From NCBI RefSeq assembly GCF_019209935.1, contig NZ_JAHUTN010000001.1, positions 186,001-250,000 on the forward strand: a DNA stretch of 64,000 bases, in the 5' to 3' direction. A program made the translations under genes and the position numbers. Shown one piece after another: positions 35,367-54,148 of this stretch (position 1 is the first letter of the stretch; each line of letters begins with the position of its first letter). This DNA comes from Corynebacterium sp. TAE3-ERU16 (GTDB taxonomy: Bacteria > Actinomycetota > Actinomycetes > Mycobacteriales > Mycobacteriaceae). The notes below the pieces were generated by a model that was given only the letters and a program-made list of their open reading frames with translations, was not told the origin of the DNA and ran no database searches.

Positions 35367-35833
35367 AGCGGATATCGGCCACTGCTTTCTCGTCGAAACG
35401 TCATGTCCGCCGTCCGGCGGTGCTGCCTACCACCAGTCTAGTCCTCCGATATCTTAAAATCCCGTTGGGTATTCGAGGCAGATGCCAACGACAGGATTGG
35501 ATTAGAATGGCGATGGCGATGGACGCTGAAAAGCCCTCGATCACCATCGCCCGCAGGGTGAAAAGACCGCCTTGAACTACCAACCACACCCAGGACTTTC
35601 CTGAAGCACGCTAAGCGAAGCATGAGTGTGGAGATATCCGTAATCAAGACGACCTGAACACCAAGCGGTGCATGGTGAGCCACAACCGCTAGCGGCCACA
35701 TCTGATTTGGTGATCACGTCCCCTCAGCGCTGCGCGACTCGAATCGGCGAAGCATCAAATACGCCGCGCCTGCTTCAAAGTTCAAAGCCGCACCCGCCAG
35801 GTGAGCTTTTCCTCAAGGCCGGTCAGACCGGAG

Positions 35834-37168
35834 TCAGTTTCCGAAACCTACGAAGAAATTAAGACCTCGAATAAAATCGCGGAAGAATCCGGTAAGCCAC
35901 GCGAGCAATCCTCCGAGGAACTTCACGATTGCAACCACCGCGGCGACGGGCGAATTATCGCTTGGCCCGGTCCCGGTGTTGTCGTCACTGGGATTCGGAG
36001 CGTTGTCATCTGGATCGCGGGTATCATCCCCGGAACCATCCGAAGCCGACTCACCGTCACCCGAACCATCCGAAGCCGACTCACCGTCACCCGAACCATC
36101 CGAAGCCGACTCACCGTCACCCGAACCATCCGAAGCCGACTCACCATCACCCGAACCATCCGGGATCGACCCACCGTCACCCGAACCATCCGGGATCGAC
36201 CCATCATCATCAAGAGTGAAACCGATCCAACTCGGATCCGCGAGCGGCCCCATGTATCCGGGTATAGCTTCAACGTCAATTTTTTGATCAAAATACTTCA
36301 TGCATGCGCTGCTAGAGGCCGAAATACGCTGATAAGCGCGGTAGGCTTCTGCGGCATCGAGGCTCATAAAGTCCTGAATGGCCCGGCGCCGCATTTCGCG
36401 GATTCTCTTATACTCCTGAAGTACCACTTTCTGAAGTTCTAGATCTGAATTAGGAATAGAGGAATCATACTCACCGTTACCCATAAGCGAGTCGATGCCC
36501 CGATTCTTATATTCCTCAAATTTCGAAATGAACTCCTCTTTTGAAAGATCAGGGAGCGAACCAGCACCACCGACAAGGTGCGCGTGAACCGAAGTGGCCC
36601 CAAAAAGTACCAAATCGTCATCGACAGTAAAGACATCCATCTCACTAGGCGAGACGGAGATTCTAAAAAGGGAAGACCAAAGTGCAGGAACTGAGGAAGC
36701 TTCATCAAAACCATACTTTTTGCCGACGGCTTCGTTCGCGGGAGCTAGTTCTTCAATTCCCTGATTAAGTTGAGATATTTCCTCGTCAATCTCTGCCATT
36801 CTCTCTGAAGCTTCTTCTCCAGTGCCCAGTAGCTTACGCTCTTGCTCGAGCTTGGTGATTTTCATCTGCAACTGCCAACTCTTCTTAAAAGAAGGTTCCT
36901 TCGTGGCTTCTTTTAACGCCGCAAAAACCGCAGCATAGTGATCCAATTTCGCCAAATATTCGGCTTGGACAATCTCGGAATAGTCAAAGCTCGACAGGAA
37001 ACCACTTAACACAGTAGCACGGTCACTGTCCGTAAACTTCGAGTTACAATACAACTTTTCATCCCAAGACCCAGCATAAACAAATGTATCGGCCGATGCT
37101 GGGCTGACGAAAACTGAGGCCGCAAGAGAGACTCCGACCAGCGACCCAATGGTTCTACGAAAATACAC
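35834..37168 (-). CDS. Secreted repeat protein with C-terminal hydrophobic segment, 444 aa
   Basis: A 444-residue exported protein of unknown family. Signal peptide (about 1-26, cleavage after ASA); a helical region with coiled-coil-like heptads (about 95-140, ITKLEQERKLL, MAEIDEEISQLNQGIEEL); a globular middle; six 10-residue repeats of type GESASDGSGD or GGSIPDGSGD (about 320-379); an Asp/Pro/Asn-rich linker; and a C-terminal hydrophobic helix (about 410-435, VVAIVKFLGGLLAWLTGFF). Two cysteines in the mature part might form a disulfide. The GTG start has GAGGAAG 4 nt upstream. The topology suggests a wall-spanning or membrane-anchored surface protein. It lies in AT-rich DNA. Confidence 0.7.
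   Translation of the reverse strand: MYFRRTIGSLVGVSLAASVFVSPASADTFVYAGSWDEKLYCNSKFTDSDRATVLSGFLSSFDYSEIVQAEYLAKLDHYAAVFAALKEATKEPSFKKSWQLQMKITKLEQERKLLGTGEEASERMAEIDEEISQLNQGIEELAPANEAVGKKYGFDEASSVPALWSSLFRISVSPSEMDVFTVDDDLVLFGATSVHAHLVGGAGSLPDLSKEEFISKFEEYKNRGIDSLMGNGEYDSSIPNSDLELQKVVLQEYKRIREMRRRAIQDFMSLDAAEAYRAYQRISASSSACMKYFDQKIDVEAIPGYMGPLADPSWIGFTLDDDGSIPDGSGDGGSIPDGSGDGESASDGSGDGESASDGSGDGESASDGSGDGESASDGSGDDTRDPDDNAPNPSDDNTGTGPSDNSPVAAVVAIVKFLGGLLAWLTGFFRDFIRGLNFFVGFGN
36031..36210. repeat. Six tandem 30-bp units coding for 10-residue Ser/Gly/Asp repeats
   Basis: Units start at 36031, 36061, 36091, 36121, 36151 and 36181. The first four share the core CCGAAGCCGACTCACCGTCA (with one base change in unit 4); the last two carry CCGGGATCGACCCACC, encoding the GSIP variant instead of ESAS. 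The last unit degenerates at its end. In-frame, perfect 30-bp periodicity allows unit number to change without a frameshift. Confidence 0.92.
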
Positions 37169-37665
37169 GACGCTTCCTCACGGTGAGATTGACAATGATG
37201 AGATACCAACGCTACGGCATCGACCGCTGCAGGTTAGCTTTTTTCGGATTATCCGTCCACTTTCCCACGAAACTACCCCCATCATGATTAGCCCGATCTT
37301 TCACGGTGGCAAACACTCAAAACTGGACCACTGCCCACCATTTGGTATTATTTAGCCCGCCGTCTCATGGTAACCTTTTCACGCTATTCTAGATGAGCGA
37401 TACATCGCCACGCGCCACCCAACAACCTTTCTAAAGACCGCGCAAACAAATCGATCGGATACCGCGCAGGATCCACAATAATCCATTATTTGATTACCGA
37501 TAATCGACCATTCTCTATATTATTGCAGCACCGAACCTATTTAAAAACAGCTAAAGCTACACTCGAACACCACGGGTGACACCCCTACGTCTCCCTAGCA
37601 CGTACGCTCATACCCAAATACCGAGATAGCCCGCCAGCCCCGAAGAATTCGCCGACAATAAAGGG

Positions 37666-37971
37666 CTACTTAGAATCGTCATCCTCAGGAACTTTTGGCT
37701 CACTGGCGGACATAACCCTTACCCGCATCAAGGAATTTGAACTAGCAGGAGGATTGGTTCCCGACGAAATCGAGTTCCGAGAACTACGTACCAACGGCAG
37801 TTCAAAGACAGTGTCCAATCTGTTAACCAGCTTAGTTGCCAACACGGCAATCGGAGTACAGATAAGCAGAGCGACGACCATGACCAAGGGCGTCTGGATC
37901 CACAGCGGCGCACTAGTAAGCCATTGCCCGACCCGATCAGCCCACGGTGTGATAGTTGCGAGATAGTCCAT
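37666..37971 (-). CDS. Small single-span membrane protein, 101 aa
   Basis: A 101-residue protein: amphipathic N-terminus (MDYLATITPWADRVGQWLTS), one strong membrane helix (about 27-46, TPLVMVVALLICTPIAVLAT), and a polar, basic-to-acidic C-terminal tail that ends EDDDSK. AGGAG precedes the ATG closely. It is transcribed in the same direction as the secreted repeat protein 497 nt downstream. The gene is inside the AT-rich island but its frame is clean. The function is unknown. Confidence 0.6.
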   Translation of the reverse strand: MDYLATITPWADRVGQWLTSAPLWIQTPLVMVVALLICTPIAVLATKLVNRLDTVFELPLVRSSRNSISSGTNPPASSNSLMRVRVMSASEPKVPEDDDSK

Positions 37972-40579
37972 AATCTCCTGAGCCTAGCCGAAATAGCAGA
38001 AAAAACACAGAGACGGGCCCGACGGGACCCAACTCCTCCTGAAAGACCCGAATCGCCAACTCCCCGACCAGATCGATATCCACACCGGTAGCGGGTCAAA
38101 TCGAGAACGCTGTGCGACGAGCCCCGGCCAATAATTGCAATAGGTTAGCGACTGAACACCATCTCGTCTTATTCATTTGTCACCAACTCTCCCCCTTGCG
38201 CCTATTACCGCAATTCCCTCGCGACCTGGAACCTTTTATAGAACAAAAGCCGGAGAATCTCCACGACGCCAGAATCGGCCTATACTATTTTATTGATACC
38301 TGCTCTGAAATCATACAATAATCGAATTCTATTTATGACGCCTTTTCCACATCGATTCCCCAAGATCATCGTACCCTCAGAAGCGCTAGCTTTTAAATTG
38401 GATACTTGTATCCAGACCGTAGGAGTCATCGAATTATTCTTCAATCAGATAAAACAATACTCCGTTAGGAACACCACCAAGAAATAAGAAAACGACAGCA
38501 CTCTTATCTTACATTTTCGAAACGAATTCCTCGTTATTAATTTTGTTTTGCTTGGACAAACATTGTTTATCCCATACATGGAGCATTCGGCATCCACACA
38601 GTACGGTCCAGAATTACAGAACTGCAACCGGTTTACCGAGATCTAAACACCTTACTTTATTTTTGACACCATGTGCAGTACTTGAACGACGACTTACAAT
38701 CGGTCTTCCTACACATTGCCCATCTGACGTATATTTGGCCTGAATACCAATCCCGGATGGTCACTGGAGCTATCCATAATCTCTGCAATTCCGATTATTC
38801 AGTTCTCTTTTAATTCTTGAGAAACTGTTTTTCCGCGCCACATCTTTTCGGGCCAAATTTAACTGTCTCCGAGGCGGCCGAAGCGAACCTAAGATTGCAG
38901 CCCATTGAATCGACCGCCGCCCAACCAGCGCCAACCCAGTAGAGCAGCTCGAAAATTTCTATCGAGGCCGTAACCTACTCAAAACAGCACCCCAATCAAA
39001 CGGAGTGAAAGAATCGAAATTGCCATAGTTGGGGTGAAATAATTGTCTTGCGCCAAGCTATCGGGCATGAGCTTTCCGAAGTGTAATCCTTTTTATTTCT
39101 ACTAACCGCTGCTTTAGAGACATACGGAGTTTGCACCAATTTGCGAGCAGCCACGGCGGCATGGAATCTTTTTCACTAGCCTGGATAATTGAGCAATATA
39201 GAACGGATATCGACATCTATCAGATTCACCGCCGTCGAGGAATCGATTTTCCGTTAAGTTGCTACACACCGCAGCAGGGCCCACAGGAATCGATACCCCA
39301 CACTCCCCCCACTTGGAGAGAATAAGTGCGGCGGCGTCTCGACATAAATGTCTTGTTTTCACAATCGCCGAAACCGACGGGGTCTCCAGCTCTGTTCGAA
39401 AAGGACCTCGATCTGGTCTTGGAACATATTCTGGCAAAGATCTAGACCGGGTTCGTTTAGCATCGCTGACGGATCGAAACATCTATCCGGAAGAGCTTCG
39501 GAAGCTACCTGGTGGATGTAAGTGGTTCGGCGCGATGGTCACTGCTTTCGGCTCGCACCGGGGGTTATCGCAGCCCCTACGGGACACCCGTCTGTGTTCG
39601 CGAGAAAATAATCCGAATATCTTTCGATCACGCTAACGTGCCGGGTATCGAATCCCTAAACCAGCTCAAGACTCAAGATTTTGATGTTTTCGATGATATT
39701 GGCAATCTCATCTCAACCTAGTAGAGCGTATTGATAAGTCCGTAGGGTTAGACCTGGACCCGCATCTGCTTTTGAGTGCGCGCCCCGGAGTTTAATTACC
39801 GTTTTTTTGCGGGTCAATCTAGATCGGCGGCTTGAGGTTATCTTAATAAACGGGTAAATTTTGGTTCGCCCGCACGTTCTCCGCCATCTGGGAAAGGGAA
39901 AGGGTTCGATCAGTCAGTGCGGAGCACAGAGTTTTTCCAATCTGAACCGTACGTAGGGTGACCAGGCTGGTCTTCTTATATTTCTAATCCGGGAGTGCCT
40001 AACCAGTGGTCAGGTTCGAATGGTGGATTCTTGGCAGCCGTTTGGTTGAGGTAGTGAGCTCAATCCATTGAAAGAGTGAACGTCACTCCAATCGAGCTGG
40101 TCGGCTCGGCTCTTTCGGTGACCGAAGCTGAATTTTAGATATTTCTTGGTGCTCCAGGTTTTTCAGCCGTCTTGGGTCTGGGGAAATTCTGTTCCCCGGA
40201 TAATCCGTAACGTTGGTGGAACACTTGCGGTGGTCAGAATTCGTGGAGCATCGGTTGAAGATTTTTGAGATCGAGACCCGCCAGGTTTCAACAACTTGGT
40301 TTTTCAGTTGCTTGCTTTTGAGTCAGATCCTTCTAACGCCACATCTACTAAGCTCAGGTGGCGATTTCGACGGTGAAGGCGTTATAGCGGTCGGGACATC
40401 CGCGATTTTTCTTCAATACGAGATTGGAGGATCAGATCGGCTGTGATTCTCCAACAACGTAGAGCACGTATCCGAGAACTATTCGGAACAGTGTTGAAGC
40501 ACGGACCTTAGGCAGGAGACGCGCTTATACCTTTGTATTTCTAGCTCCCTGCTCCTACCTCGACCATTTTCCGGGTTGC
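37972..40579. other. AT-rich stretch of about 2.6 kb without a supported gene
   Basis: Six-frame reading shows only short open frames of low coding character. A few segments look like remnants: a 38-codon frame starting GTG at 39328 (containing LFSQSPKPTGSPALFEKDLD) and a 77-codon frame at 40213-40446 with one hydrophobic stretch. Neither has a good RBS or recognisable family. No RNA gene or insertion sequence is identifiable by eye. Confidence 0.55.
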
Positions 40580-40585
40580 TAGCCT
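40580..40585 (+). promoter_or_regulatory. Candidate -10 box of the carboxylesterase gene
   Basis: TAGCCT is followed by GAGGACC and the ATG at 40593. The 7-nt gap fits a leaderless start, but GAGGA could also act as a ribosome binding site if transcription begins further upstream. Confidence 0.4.
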
Positions 40586-40592
40586 GAGGACC

Positions 40593-52336: not shown

Positions 52337-54148
52337 ATGGCAATTCACTTCAACATCCCAGAACTAAATGGCATCGTAAGTTCTTTGCAAGAAAATCAAC
52401 AGAAGATTCAAAATGCCAGCAACCAGATTATATTTGGGCCACGTATCAGCGCATATTCTTCGGCCCCCGGCCTGGAGGATCTCGGCTGTCAACATGCTCA
52501 GGTATTGACCGGTGGCGCTGGCTCTGCAGAGGACGTGCTCGCCGTGTGCCGCGCGCAGGCTGAATGGTTGGCAGAAGCTCTGCATTCGACGGTGCGGGCG
52601 TTGGAAACCATGGACGGGGTTACCCGCATCCAGCTGGTCACCGGAGCACCCGGGCCCGAAATCACACCCGATGCACTCCCGTTTCCCGATCGACCGGGCG
52701 CGGACTACCGCCCCTTCACCTTCACTCCCCCACACGTCGGCGGCGGCGTCGACTCTCTGGCGGCGCTGGCCGCGTTGTTCTCAACGACCAACACCGCAGC
52801 CGCGGAGCGGGCTGAACAGACCTGGAGTCGCGCCGCGACCCAGACCGCCGAGATCGCCGAAGATCTCGAGTCGATCGCCGGAAAGATCAGGGACCTGACC
52901 GAAGGGGAATCATTCGAGCAGGCTGCACAGACCATCTCGACCGTCGCCGCGAGTGCGCGGGTGTTTTCCGGCAACGCCCGAATCATGGAACGCAGTGTGG
53001 CCAAACTCAACCCCATCAGCTCCTGGGCTCAGTCGGAGATCGCTGCGGCCCAGGCGGAAATCGAATCGATCGAGGATCCCGAGGAGCGCGAGGTCGCGGA
53101 GAAAGCCTGGGTCTCGTCCTTCCTCGCCGGTAGTCTCCCCGCAGAGGTTTCCAGCGCGGTTCCGCCGATCAGACACCTGATGGAATCCCCGGTCAGTGGG
53201 CACAGTGGACACACAGGCAACAGTGGCGGTCAGATCGGGTTCAGTGACACCGCTCCGGCGATCACCGGTGGCACAGGAACGGGTACTGACGGCGGCACCG
53301 CAGGGACGATCGCGTCCGCCCAGACCGGTGGTACCGACCTGGTGCGGCCGGATTCGCTCGGTACCTCAACCGCCGGAGTCGGAGGTGGTGGCCCCGCGAC
53401 GCCCACCTCCGGACAAGTACCCGTGACTGGTGGTGGGGTGCCCGTGACTGGCACGGCCGCATCCGGCGGCATCACAAACCCCGGTACCGGTTCAGGTGGT
53501 GGGGTATCCGTGACCGGTCCAGCCGCACTCGGTGGCACCGCCGGCGCTGTCCCCGGCGCCAGCACCGGCAAAACTGGTGCGGGTTCCGGTGCAGGCACTG
53601 GCGGGTTGAGTGTTGTGCCAGGCTCAGTCGGTGCTGCCAGCGGTGGGGTTCGGGGTACACCGGGTGCATCGCCAGGTGGTTCGGGCGAGGGATTTACAGG
53701 CCCAGGCGGTTCGGGCAAGGGATTTACAGGCCCAGGCGGTTCGGGCAAGGGATTTACAGGCCCAGGCGGTATCGGCCACCGGTCAGCGGCCGTACCGGGT
53801 ACGCGATCCGGAACAGGGGTGAGCCGTTCCGGCGGGGGCGGCGTTTCCGGTGGTGGGCTGACGCAGCGCCCCGGCGCGTCTGTCCCGGCGACGGGCACAG
53901 GTGCTGTGGGTCAAGCGGCCTCCGGTGGCACGCAGGGCACAGGCGTGGGCCGGGGCGGGATGGCCGGTGGTGTCCCGATGTCCGGCACCGCCGGTGGCCG
54001 GCGGGACCGGAAGAAGCCGTCATCGGTGTTGTCACAGGTGGAGCGGTCGGGGAATCTGGAGAAAATCCTCGGCCCCGCACCGTTGACGGTACCGCCGGTC
54101 ATCGGTGACTGGGCACGGAAAACCCCGCCGGACACGGCACAACGGTGA
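52337..54148 (+). CDS. Helical protein with long glycine-rich repeat tail, 603 aa
   Basis: A 603-residue protein. N-terminal helical part (about 1-280) contains IHFNIPELNGIVSSLQENQQ, AEDVLAVCRAQAEWLAEAL and coiled-coil-like ERAEQTWSRAATQTAEIAEDL; this resembles WXG100/PPE-type ESX substrates in style, but no WXG or PPE signature is seen. The C-terminal part (about 290-560) is dominated by Gly, Thr, Ser and Pro, with a 10-residue GGSGKGFTGP repeat. The tail ends with a basic then Pro-rich stretch. No signal peptide is present, which would fit type VII secretion or another non-Sec route, but this is inference. AAGGAG lies 8 nt before the ATG. Confidence 0.65.
   Translation: MAIHFNIPELNGIVSSLQENQQKIQNASNQIIFGPRISAYSSAPGLEDLGCQHAQVLTGGAGSAEDVLAVCRAQAEWLAEALHSTVRALETMDGVTRIQLVTGAPGPEITPDALPFPDRPGADYRPFTFTPPHVGGGVDSLAALAALFSTTNTAAAERAEQTWSRAATQTAEIAEDLESIAGKIRDLTEGESFEQAAQTISTVAASARVFSGNARIMERSVAKLNPISSWAQSEIAAAQAEIESIEDPEEREVAEKAWVSSFLAGSLPAEVSSAVPPIRHLMESPVSGHSGHTGNSGGQIGFSDTAPAITGGTGTGTDGGTAGTIASAQTGGTDLVRPDSLGTSTAGVGGGGPATPTSGQVPVTGGGVPVTGTAASGGITNPGTGSGGGVSVTGPAALGGTAGAVPGASTGKTGAGSGAGTGGLSVVPGSVGAASGGVRGTPGASPGGSGEGFTGPGGSGKGFTGPGGSGKGFTGPGGIGHRSAAVPGTRSGTGVSRSGGGGVSGGGLTQRPGASVPATGTGAVGQAASGGTQGTGVGRGGMAGGVPMSGTAGGRRDRKKPSSVLSQVERSGNLEKILGPAPLTVPPVIGDWARKTPPDTAQR
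53671..53770. repeat. Tandem 30-bp repeat in the glycine-rich gene
   Basis: Units begin at 53671, 53701 and 53731, with a partial fourth at 53761. Units two and three are identical (CCCAGGCGGTTCGGGCAAGG then GATTTACAGG); the first differs at three positions. Each unit encodes 10 residues (PGGSGKGFTG). Confidence 0.92.

Follow-up and report, generated by a model that had tools for sequence, protein, structure and literature searches.

Two genes that adjoin on the minus strand of a Corynebacterium sp. TAE3-ERU16 contig raise the question of whether a repeat-bearing surface protein and a small membrane protein form a functional pair. A first-pass annotation of the window, i.e., of the whole 64,000-nt stretch of DNA analysed here, had described the larger product as a wall-spanning, anchored protein and the smaller one as its possible assembly partner. 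Both open reading frames (ORFs) were found where that annotation had placed them, with translations as described: a 444-residue protein is encoded at 35834..37168 (-) and, upstream on the same strand, a 101-residue protein with a single membrane span at 37666..37971 (-). The topology that had been proposed stands in one part, as the layout of the larger protein is that of a surface protein that is exported, anchored at its C-terminus and equipped with a repeat spacer, while the distribution of the two genes speaks against an assembly partner. The best explanation of the locus, which we regard as probable, is that the 444-residue protein (P0001) is a secreted surface protein on a PS2-like plan, anchored in the mycomembrane and encoded by a lone accessory gene, and that its 101-residue neighbour is independent of it.

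An exported protein with a repeat spacer and a divergent paralogue

The P0001 ORF, which starts with GTG, is a true gene and not a product of chance. Its stop-free run extends over 447 codons, as compared to a maximum of 234 codons in 300 mononucleotide shuffles of the region 35420-40500, a sequence resembling a ribosome-binding site (AGGAAG) is located upstream of the GTG, and the same genome encodes a diverged paralogue. The ATG of the 101-residue gene is likewise preceded by such a sequence (AGGAG). Promoter-like and terminator-like sites occur near expectation (2 versus 2.4 expected and 5 versus 3.8 expected, respectively).

A signal peptide (residues 1-26, 37091..37168 (-)) was assigned by eye from a pair of Arg residues, a hydrophobic stretch and the sequence PASA, after which cleavage is expected. 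Kyte-Doolittle analysis with 19-residue windows identified two hydrophobic segments, one within this signal peptide (residues 6-25) and the C-terminal one that had been reported before (residues 405-429). The ectodomain (residues 27-322, 36203..37090 (-)) contains exactly two cysteines, Cys41 and Cys289, and a predicted helical hairpin at residues 92-151, whose helices (92-113 and 118-151) are predicted with the highest confidence in each of the two AlphaFold2 models, with 10-residue pLDDT means of up to 87 and 89. The hairpin fits the coiled coil claimed in the first-pass annotation. Both models were built from two-row alignments and are poor overall (mean pLDDT 44 and 41); they place the hairpin far from the spacer and show helices at 240-293 with low confidence, and the ectodomain is predicted, at low confidence, to be mostly helical. 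It is followed by the six Asp/Ser/Gly decapeptides noted earlier (residues 323-382, 36023..36202 (-)), which occur as GSIPDGSGDG (two copies), ESASDGSGDG (three copies) and ESASDGSGDD (one copy) and are encoded by a 30-bp tandem array at 36033-36192 with 94% matches. The composition of this acidic spacer and its low pLDDT suggest that it is disordered. The calculated pI of the mature protein is 4.22 for P0001 and 4.41 for its paralogue. A second 30-bp tandem array in the window, at 53672-53775, lies in the gene of a 603-residue Gly-rich protein (52337-54148) with PGGSGKGFTG repeats, which is matched by an ORF in 13 of 19 relatives' regions at 30-43% local identity.

The paralogue, P0004, comprises 400 residues and is encoded on contig 13 of the same genome, which is 2.66 Mb in size and assembled into 18 contigs. 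Its match to P0001 (E 9.6e-6) includes the low-complexity spacer. P0004 exhibits a signal peptide by eye and exactly two cysteines (residues 42 and 262), located at places that match Cys41 and Cys289 of P0001. Its spacer is made of Pro/Thr/Ser instead of Asp/Ser/Gly, its tail carries GGLFAWLTGF without any positive residue after the hydrophobic segment, and its last residue is Phe. When the two proteins were compared by shuffling, with a division into half and tail that was chosen after the BLAST match had been seen, none of 2000 shuffles reached the score of the membrane-proximal half (z 6.4) or that of the tail (z 10.7). The alignment of the whole ectodomains was no better than shuffled sequences (706 of 2000 reached the score), and the paralogy therefore rests on the membrane-proximal half and the tail. 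Part of the P0001 hairpin is situated opposite a 19-residue gap in P0004, in a stretch where the alignment is not significant. The P0004 gene is found in an AT-rich patch (52.7% G+C between flanks of 71.5% and 65.8%). It stands alone in this patch (L055:8001-15163), between a very large ORF resembling fatty-acid synthase and a pair resembling type III restriction-modification genes, both names having been given by eye from the sequence.

No credible family for the P0001 ectodomain emerged from sequence searches of Pfam, NCBIfam, PHROGs and the PDB. The profile search that had been suggested for this region agrees with the first impression in so far as no Pfam, NCBIfam or PDB match to the ectodomain was credible. 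The best PDB sequence matches (E 0.024 and 0.063) were taken as chance, and the best PHROG matches fall into the low-complexity spacers (residues 323-387 of P0001, E 7e-5; residues 287-367 of P0004, E 5e-5); two weaker matches (E 0.03 and 0.08) are located in the P0001 hairpin. A Foldseek comparison of the P0001 model with the PDB yielded no match at E<=0.001, a result that is not informative because of the poor quality of the models. With a profile (A2) built from the two paralogues, the ectodomain was identified in one of 242 genus genomes, its own (E<=0.01); since this profile consists of two rows, it could overlook a further relative that has diverged to a similar degree. P0001 as a query matched three of 201 genus genomes at E<=0.001: its own, one in which the match runs through a 136-residue secreted protein with acidic repeats (G178), and one in which it is confined to the repeat region and runs antisense to a 598-residue ORF (G170). 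The best match outside its own genome in a family sample of 301 genomes reached only E 0.118, and no further relatives were found in two scans of genome contigs or in viral contigs, nor in plasmids with P0001 or in phages with P0004.

The 101-residue neighbour and the history of the locus

The 101-residue protein, whose hydrophobic stretch spans residues 18-50, belongs by homology and synteny to a family that is spread over most of the genus and usually linked to dcp, the gene of an M3 peptidase. An 18-row profile identified this family in 213 of 242 genus genomes (E<=0.001), and the window's protein as a single query found relatives in 71 of 201. Six residues (P22, W24, Q26, V30, C38 and A42) are invariant among the 18 aligned sequences and are carried by the protein of the window; the family is thereby characterized by an invariant PxWxQ and by an invariant Cys inside the membrane span. 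NCBIfam holds no model for it (the best E value among the 18 members, 0.043, was obtained with an unrelated model), and two members that were scanned against Pfam gave no match. The apparent gene pair has thus exposed a nearly genus-wide family of small membrane proteins that has no name. The genomic context was analysed in 29 small-gene loci from other genomes, which are the best-scoring ones and not a random sample. A same-strand dcp match was present in 24 of them and absent in five; the small gene usually lies directly behind dcp, at a distance of 9-130 bp between the matches in 23 of the 29 loci and of 1195 bp in one. In one close relative (G041), the small gene and the end of dcp overlap. 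No dcp gene was found anywhere in the genome under study or in G159, G062, G087, G007 and G192, and as the small gene persists in all six, it outlives dcp.

The genomes most closely related to the one under study are G159, G041 and G062, which share 91-95% identity with the window in malQ; in all three, the small gene stands about 260-350 bp after malQ, and no large gene intervenes. The order in relatives is malQ, small gene, dcp, esterase, treS, and the window's small gene is likewise situated between malQ and the esterase gene. The order of the relatives is also that of C. glutamicum and, together with a Pks13 match in the genome under study, points to a genome of the Corynebacterium type. 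From roughly 35.4 to 40.5 kb, the G+C content drops from about 69% in malQ and the esterase gene to about 50%. The block conserved with G159 ends at position 35448 and resumes inside the small gene at 37821, and as the gap between these blocks measures 133 bp in G159 versus 2373 bp in the window, the window holds about 2.2 kb of extra DNA that includes the P0001 gene. This AT-rich segment, delimited by blastn boundaries and gene order (35449..37665), is absent at the same point in G041 and G062, in agreement with G159. The small gene of the window has drifted: it shares 44-49% identity with its counterparts in the three relatives, as compared to 59-69% among those counterparts, and has a G+C content of 51.6% versus 62.9-68%.

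The place that dcp holds in G041 is occupied in the window by an AT-rich stretch (37972..40592, 48% G+C) in which no gene was recognised. Five of its nine ORFs of at least 60 residues were scanned against Pfam and none matched, and tblastn detected no credible dcp remnants in the gap. G159 and G062 also have AT-rich DNA in place of dcp, which shows no blastn match to the window beyond the small gene and the flanks. This is consequently a variable site, at which AT-rich DNA of 48-50% G+C replaces dcp in three related genomes (37972-40592 in the window; L036:8295-12568; L038:8292-9538).

A two-part system, in which P0001 would be the surface protein and the 101-residue protein its assembly partner, could be expected from the adjacency of the two genes on the same strand and from the retention of the small gene although dcp is gone. 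It is nevertheless very improbable. The small family, usually located behind dcp, occurs in 213 of the 242 genomes and P0001 in a single one, and the neighbour conservation that would mark a recurrent pair was not observed in the 29 other genomes sampled. There, tblastn (E<=0.01) detected neither P0001 nor P0004 in the 29 short small-gene loci or in the 16-kb regions that were included for 19 of the same genomes; this search speaks on close relatives only, since P0001 missed P0004 in it, and relatives as distant as P0004 escape it. The idea also fails at the paralogue, which has no homologue of the small gene within the 19.5-kb region around it (L055). Finally, the two genes of the window are separated by 497 bp, so that the operon-like spacing typical of dcp and the small gene (9-130 bp in 23 of 29 loci) is absent. 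On the grounds of distribution, synteny and spacing, the two-part system was rejected. The 101-residue protein is an unrelated old neighbour of P0001 and not its partner, and the apparent pair arises from extra DNA beside an old dcp operon.

The C-terminal tail and its membrane

The C-terminal region of P0001 (residues 405-444, 35837..35956 (-)) comprises the hydrophobic segment 405-429 with the sequence GGLLAWLTGF (residues 419-428). Two Arg and one Asp follow soon after the hydrophobic stretch, and the last residue is Asn. A sortase-anchored (LPxTG) protein was considered and rejected, as neither P0001 nor P0004 contains an LPxT[GA] motif. The pattern GG[LIMF]xAW[LF][TA]G[LF] was found at four places in three of 242 genomes, and its reversed control pattern at none. 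All four places are C-terminal and belong to P0001, P0004, an 876-residue ExeM/NucH family endonuclease of G159 (L113:505-3135; 550 bits at an NCBIfam cut-off of 300) and a 208-residue, secreted-looking protein of G135 (L114:1496-2122), the latter two carrying the tail as GG[LI]xAW[LF][TA]G and ending in Arg. The gene of the 208-residue protein stands between genes that read like those of ribosomal protein L11 and NusG. Used as a protein query at E<=1, the 42-residue tail of P0001 gave matches in 75 of the 242 genomes. Those in 29 foreign loci were inspected and are weak and individually not significant (E 0.0097-0.21); they lie inside proteins or frames in 22 cases and coincide with a C-terminus in seven (L059, L061, L067, L068, L073, L074 and L086), including looser tails on a metallophosphoesterase (L067) and on a choice-of-anchor-M surface protein (L086). 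That one tail motif recurs on ectodomains unrelated to each other opens the idea of a modular anchor to testing and suggests that the tail is interchangeable, most likely serving attachment to the mycomembrane.

Such a membrane should be available in this host, which should make mycolates because a Pks13 match in its genome exceeds the cut-off of the family. In the control for this profile, 12 of 14 genomes matched, C. glutamicum among them, and one of the 14 passed the cut-off. By contrast, a search for the PorB porin family (PF11565) gave no match in the genome under study, although C. glutamicum, used as the control, was matched.

These observations point to a model in which P0001 is exported by Sec and probably tethered to the mycolic-acid outer membrane, with its C-terminal hydrophobic helix lodged therein. 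The acidic, disordered spacer, whose length may vary via slippage of the 30-bp repeats, would hold the ectodomain off the membrane, and one possible disulfide between Cys41 and Cys289 would close the mostly helical fold. The ectodomain itself would most likely contribute a species-specific surface or contact layer, as an adhesin or a shield of the kind that turns over rapidly. At the level of the locus, the P0001 gene stands by itself as an accessory gene within AT-rich inserted DNA, and its neighbour encodes a membrane protein with one span that belongs to the ancestral dcp operon and is conserved independently.

The membrane in which the tail resides is inferred, and a real alternative, to which we attach a distinctly lower probability than to the mycomembrane, is that P0001 is a type I protein of the inner membrane. 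Its tail would then be inserted into the cytoplasmic membrane with the Arg-containing end in the cytosol, and the spacer would cross the periplasm and the cell wall, as the earlier wall-spanning reading implied. The sequence Arg, Asp, Arg after residues 405-429 would suit a stop-transfer signal, and it is these two Arg behind the helix that keep the alternative alive. P0004, however, shares the tail and ends in Phe, and its hydrophobic segment is not followed by any positive residue; the same motif also forms the C-terminal tail of a secreted nuclease, tails of this type having been proposed as mycomembrane anchors in the part of PMC12021427 used here.

Relation to PS2 and PS2-like anchored proteins

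The first-pass annotation knew of no family with this layout. The layout is nevertheless common to PS2 and to other putative mycomembrane-anchored proteins of corynebacteria, as far as these are covered by the part of PMC12021427 used here. PS2 homologues are described there as proteins with a Sec signal peptide and a coiled coil, followed by a disordered region and, at the C-terminus, by a segment that binds the mycomembrane, and the pI of the PS2 layer is estimated at 4.25 (PMC12021427). Truncation of PS2 by 27 residues at the C-terminus leads mainly to its release into the medium, according to earlier work cited in PMC12337289. Anchors resembling that of PS2 are also listed for further proteins of C. 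glutamicum, among them a metallophosphoesterase, an ExeM/NucH nuclease and a lamin-tail protein (PMC12021427).

On account of this layout, of its acidity and of a prediction, at low confidence, of mostly helical structure, P0001 might be regarded as a divergent S-layer protein of the PS2 type, or as one that forms a lattice of its own. We consider this unlikely. PS2 was part of the searched PDB set (9hpn_A) and was matched neither by P0001 (phmmer, E<=1) nor by the A2 profile (E<=10). P0001 is also shorter than PS2 homologues and lacks their terminal Phe, and part of its hairpin faces the 19-residue gap of P0004, albeit where the alignment is not significant. The fold comparison, in which PS2 is not among the best 50 of 365 Foldseek rows, is uninformative on this point because the P0001 model has a mean pLDDT of 44. 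Similarly improbable is the proposal that P0001 and P0004 define a coat of a novel type, distinct from PS2 and anchored in the mycomembrane, in which two co-existing, fast-diverging helical proteins would self-assemble on the surface of this single species, with a spacer length tuned by slippage.

As in PS2 (PMC12021427; PMC12337289, in the parts used here), a signal peptide, an acidic helical domain, a disordered spacer and a C-terminal hydrophobic segment of about 25 residues succeed each other in P0001, the pI is close to 4.2 and the distribution is patchy. P0001 differs from PS2 in its decapeptide spacer, gives no sequence match to it, and shares with P0004 just two cysteines at matching places. 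With 444 and 400 residues, P0001 and P0004 differ from the 452-665 residues of PS2 homologues outside C. glutamicum. PS2 ends in an invariant Phe, which is also the last residue of P0004, whereas P0001 ends in Asn; the PS2-like anchored proteins end in F, P or K. The latter proteins resemble P0001 in that a disordered segment precedes a C-terminal hydrophobic anchor (PMC12021427, as above), and in G159 the ExeM/NucH nuclease shares the GGLxAWLTG motif at its end. As ectodomains, the PS2-like anchored proteins carry enzymes or known domains, in contrast to P0001, whose ectodomain matches none. P0001 adds an orphan ectodomain to a recently described class of corynebacterial proteins, for which a C-terminal helix is presumed to provide attachment to the mycomembrane.
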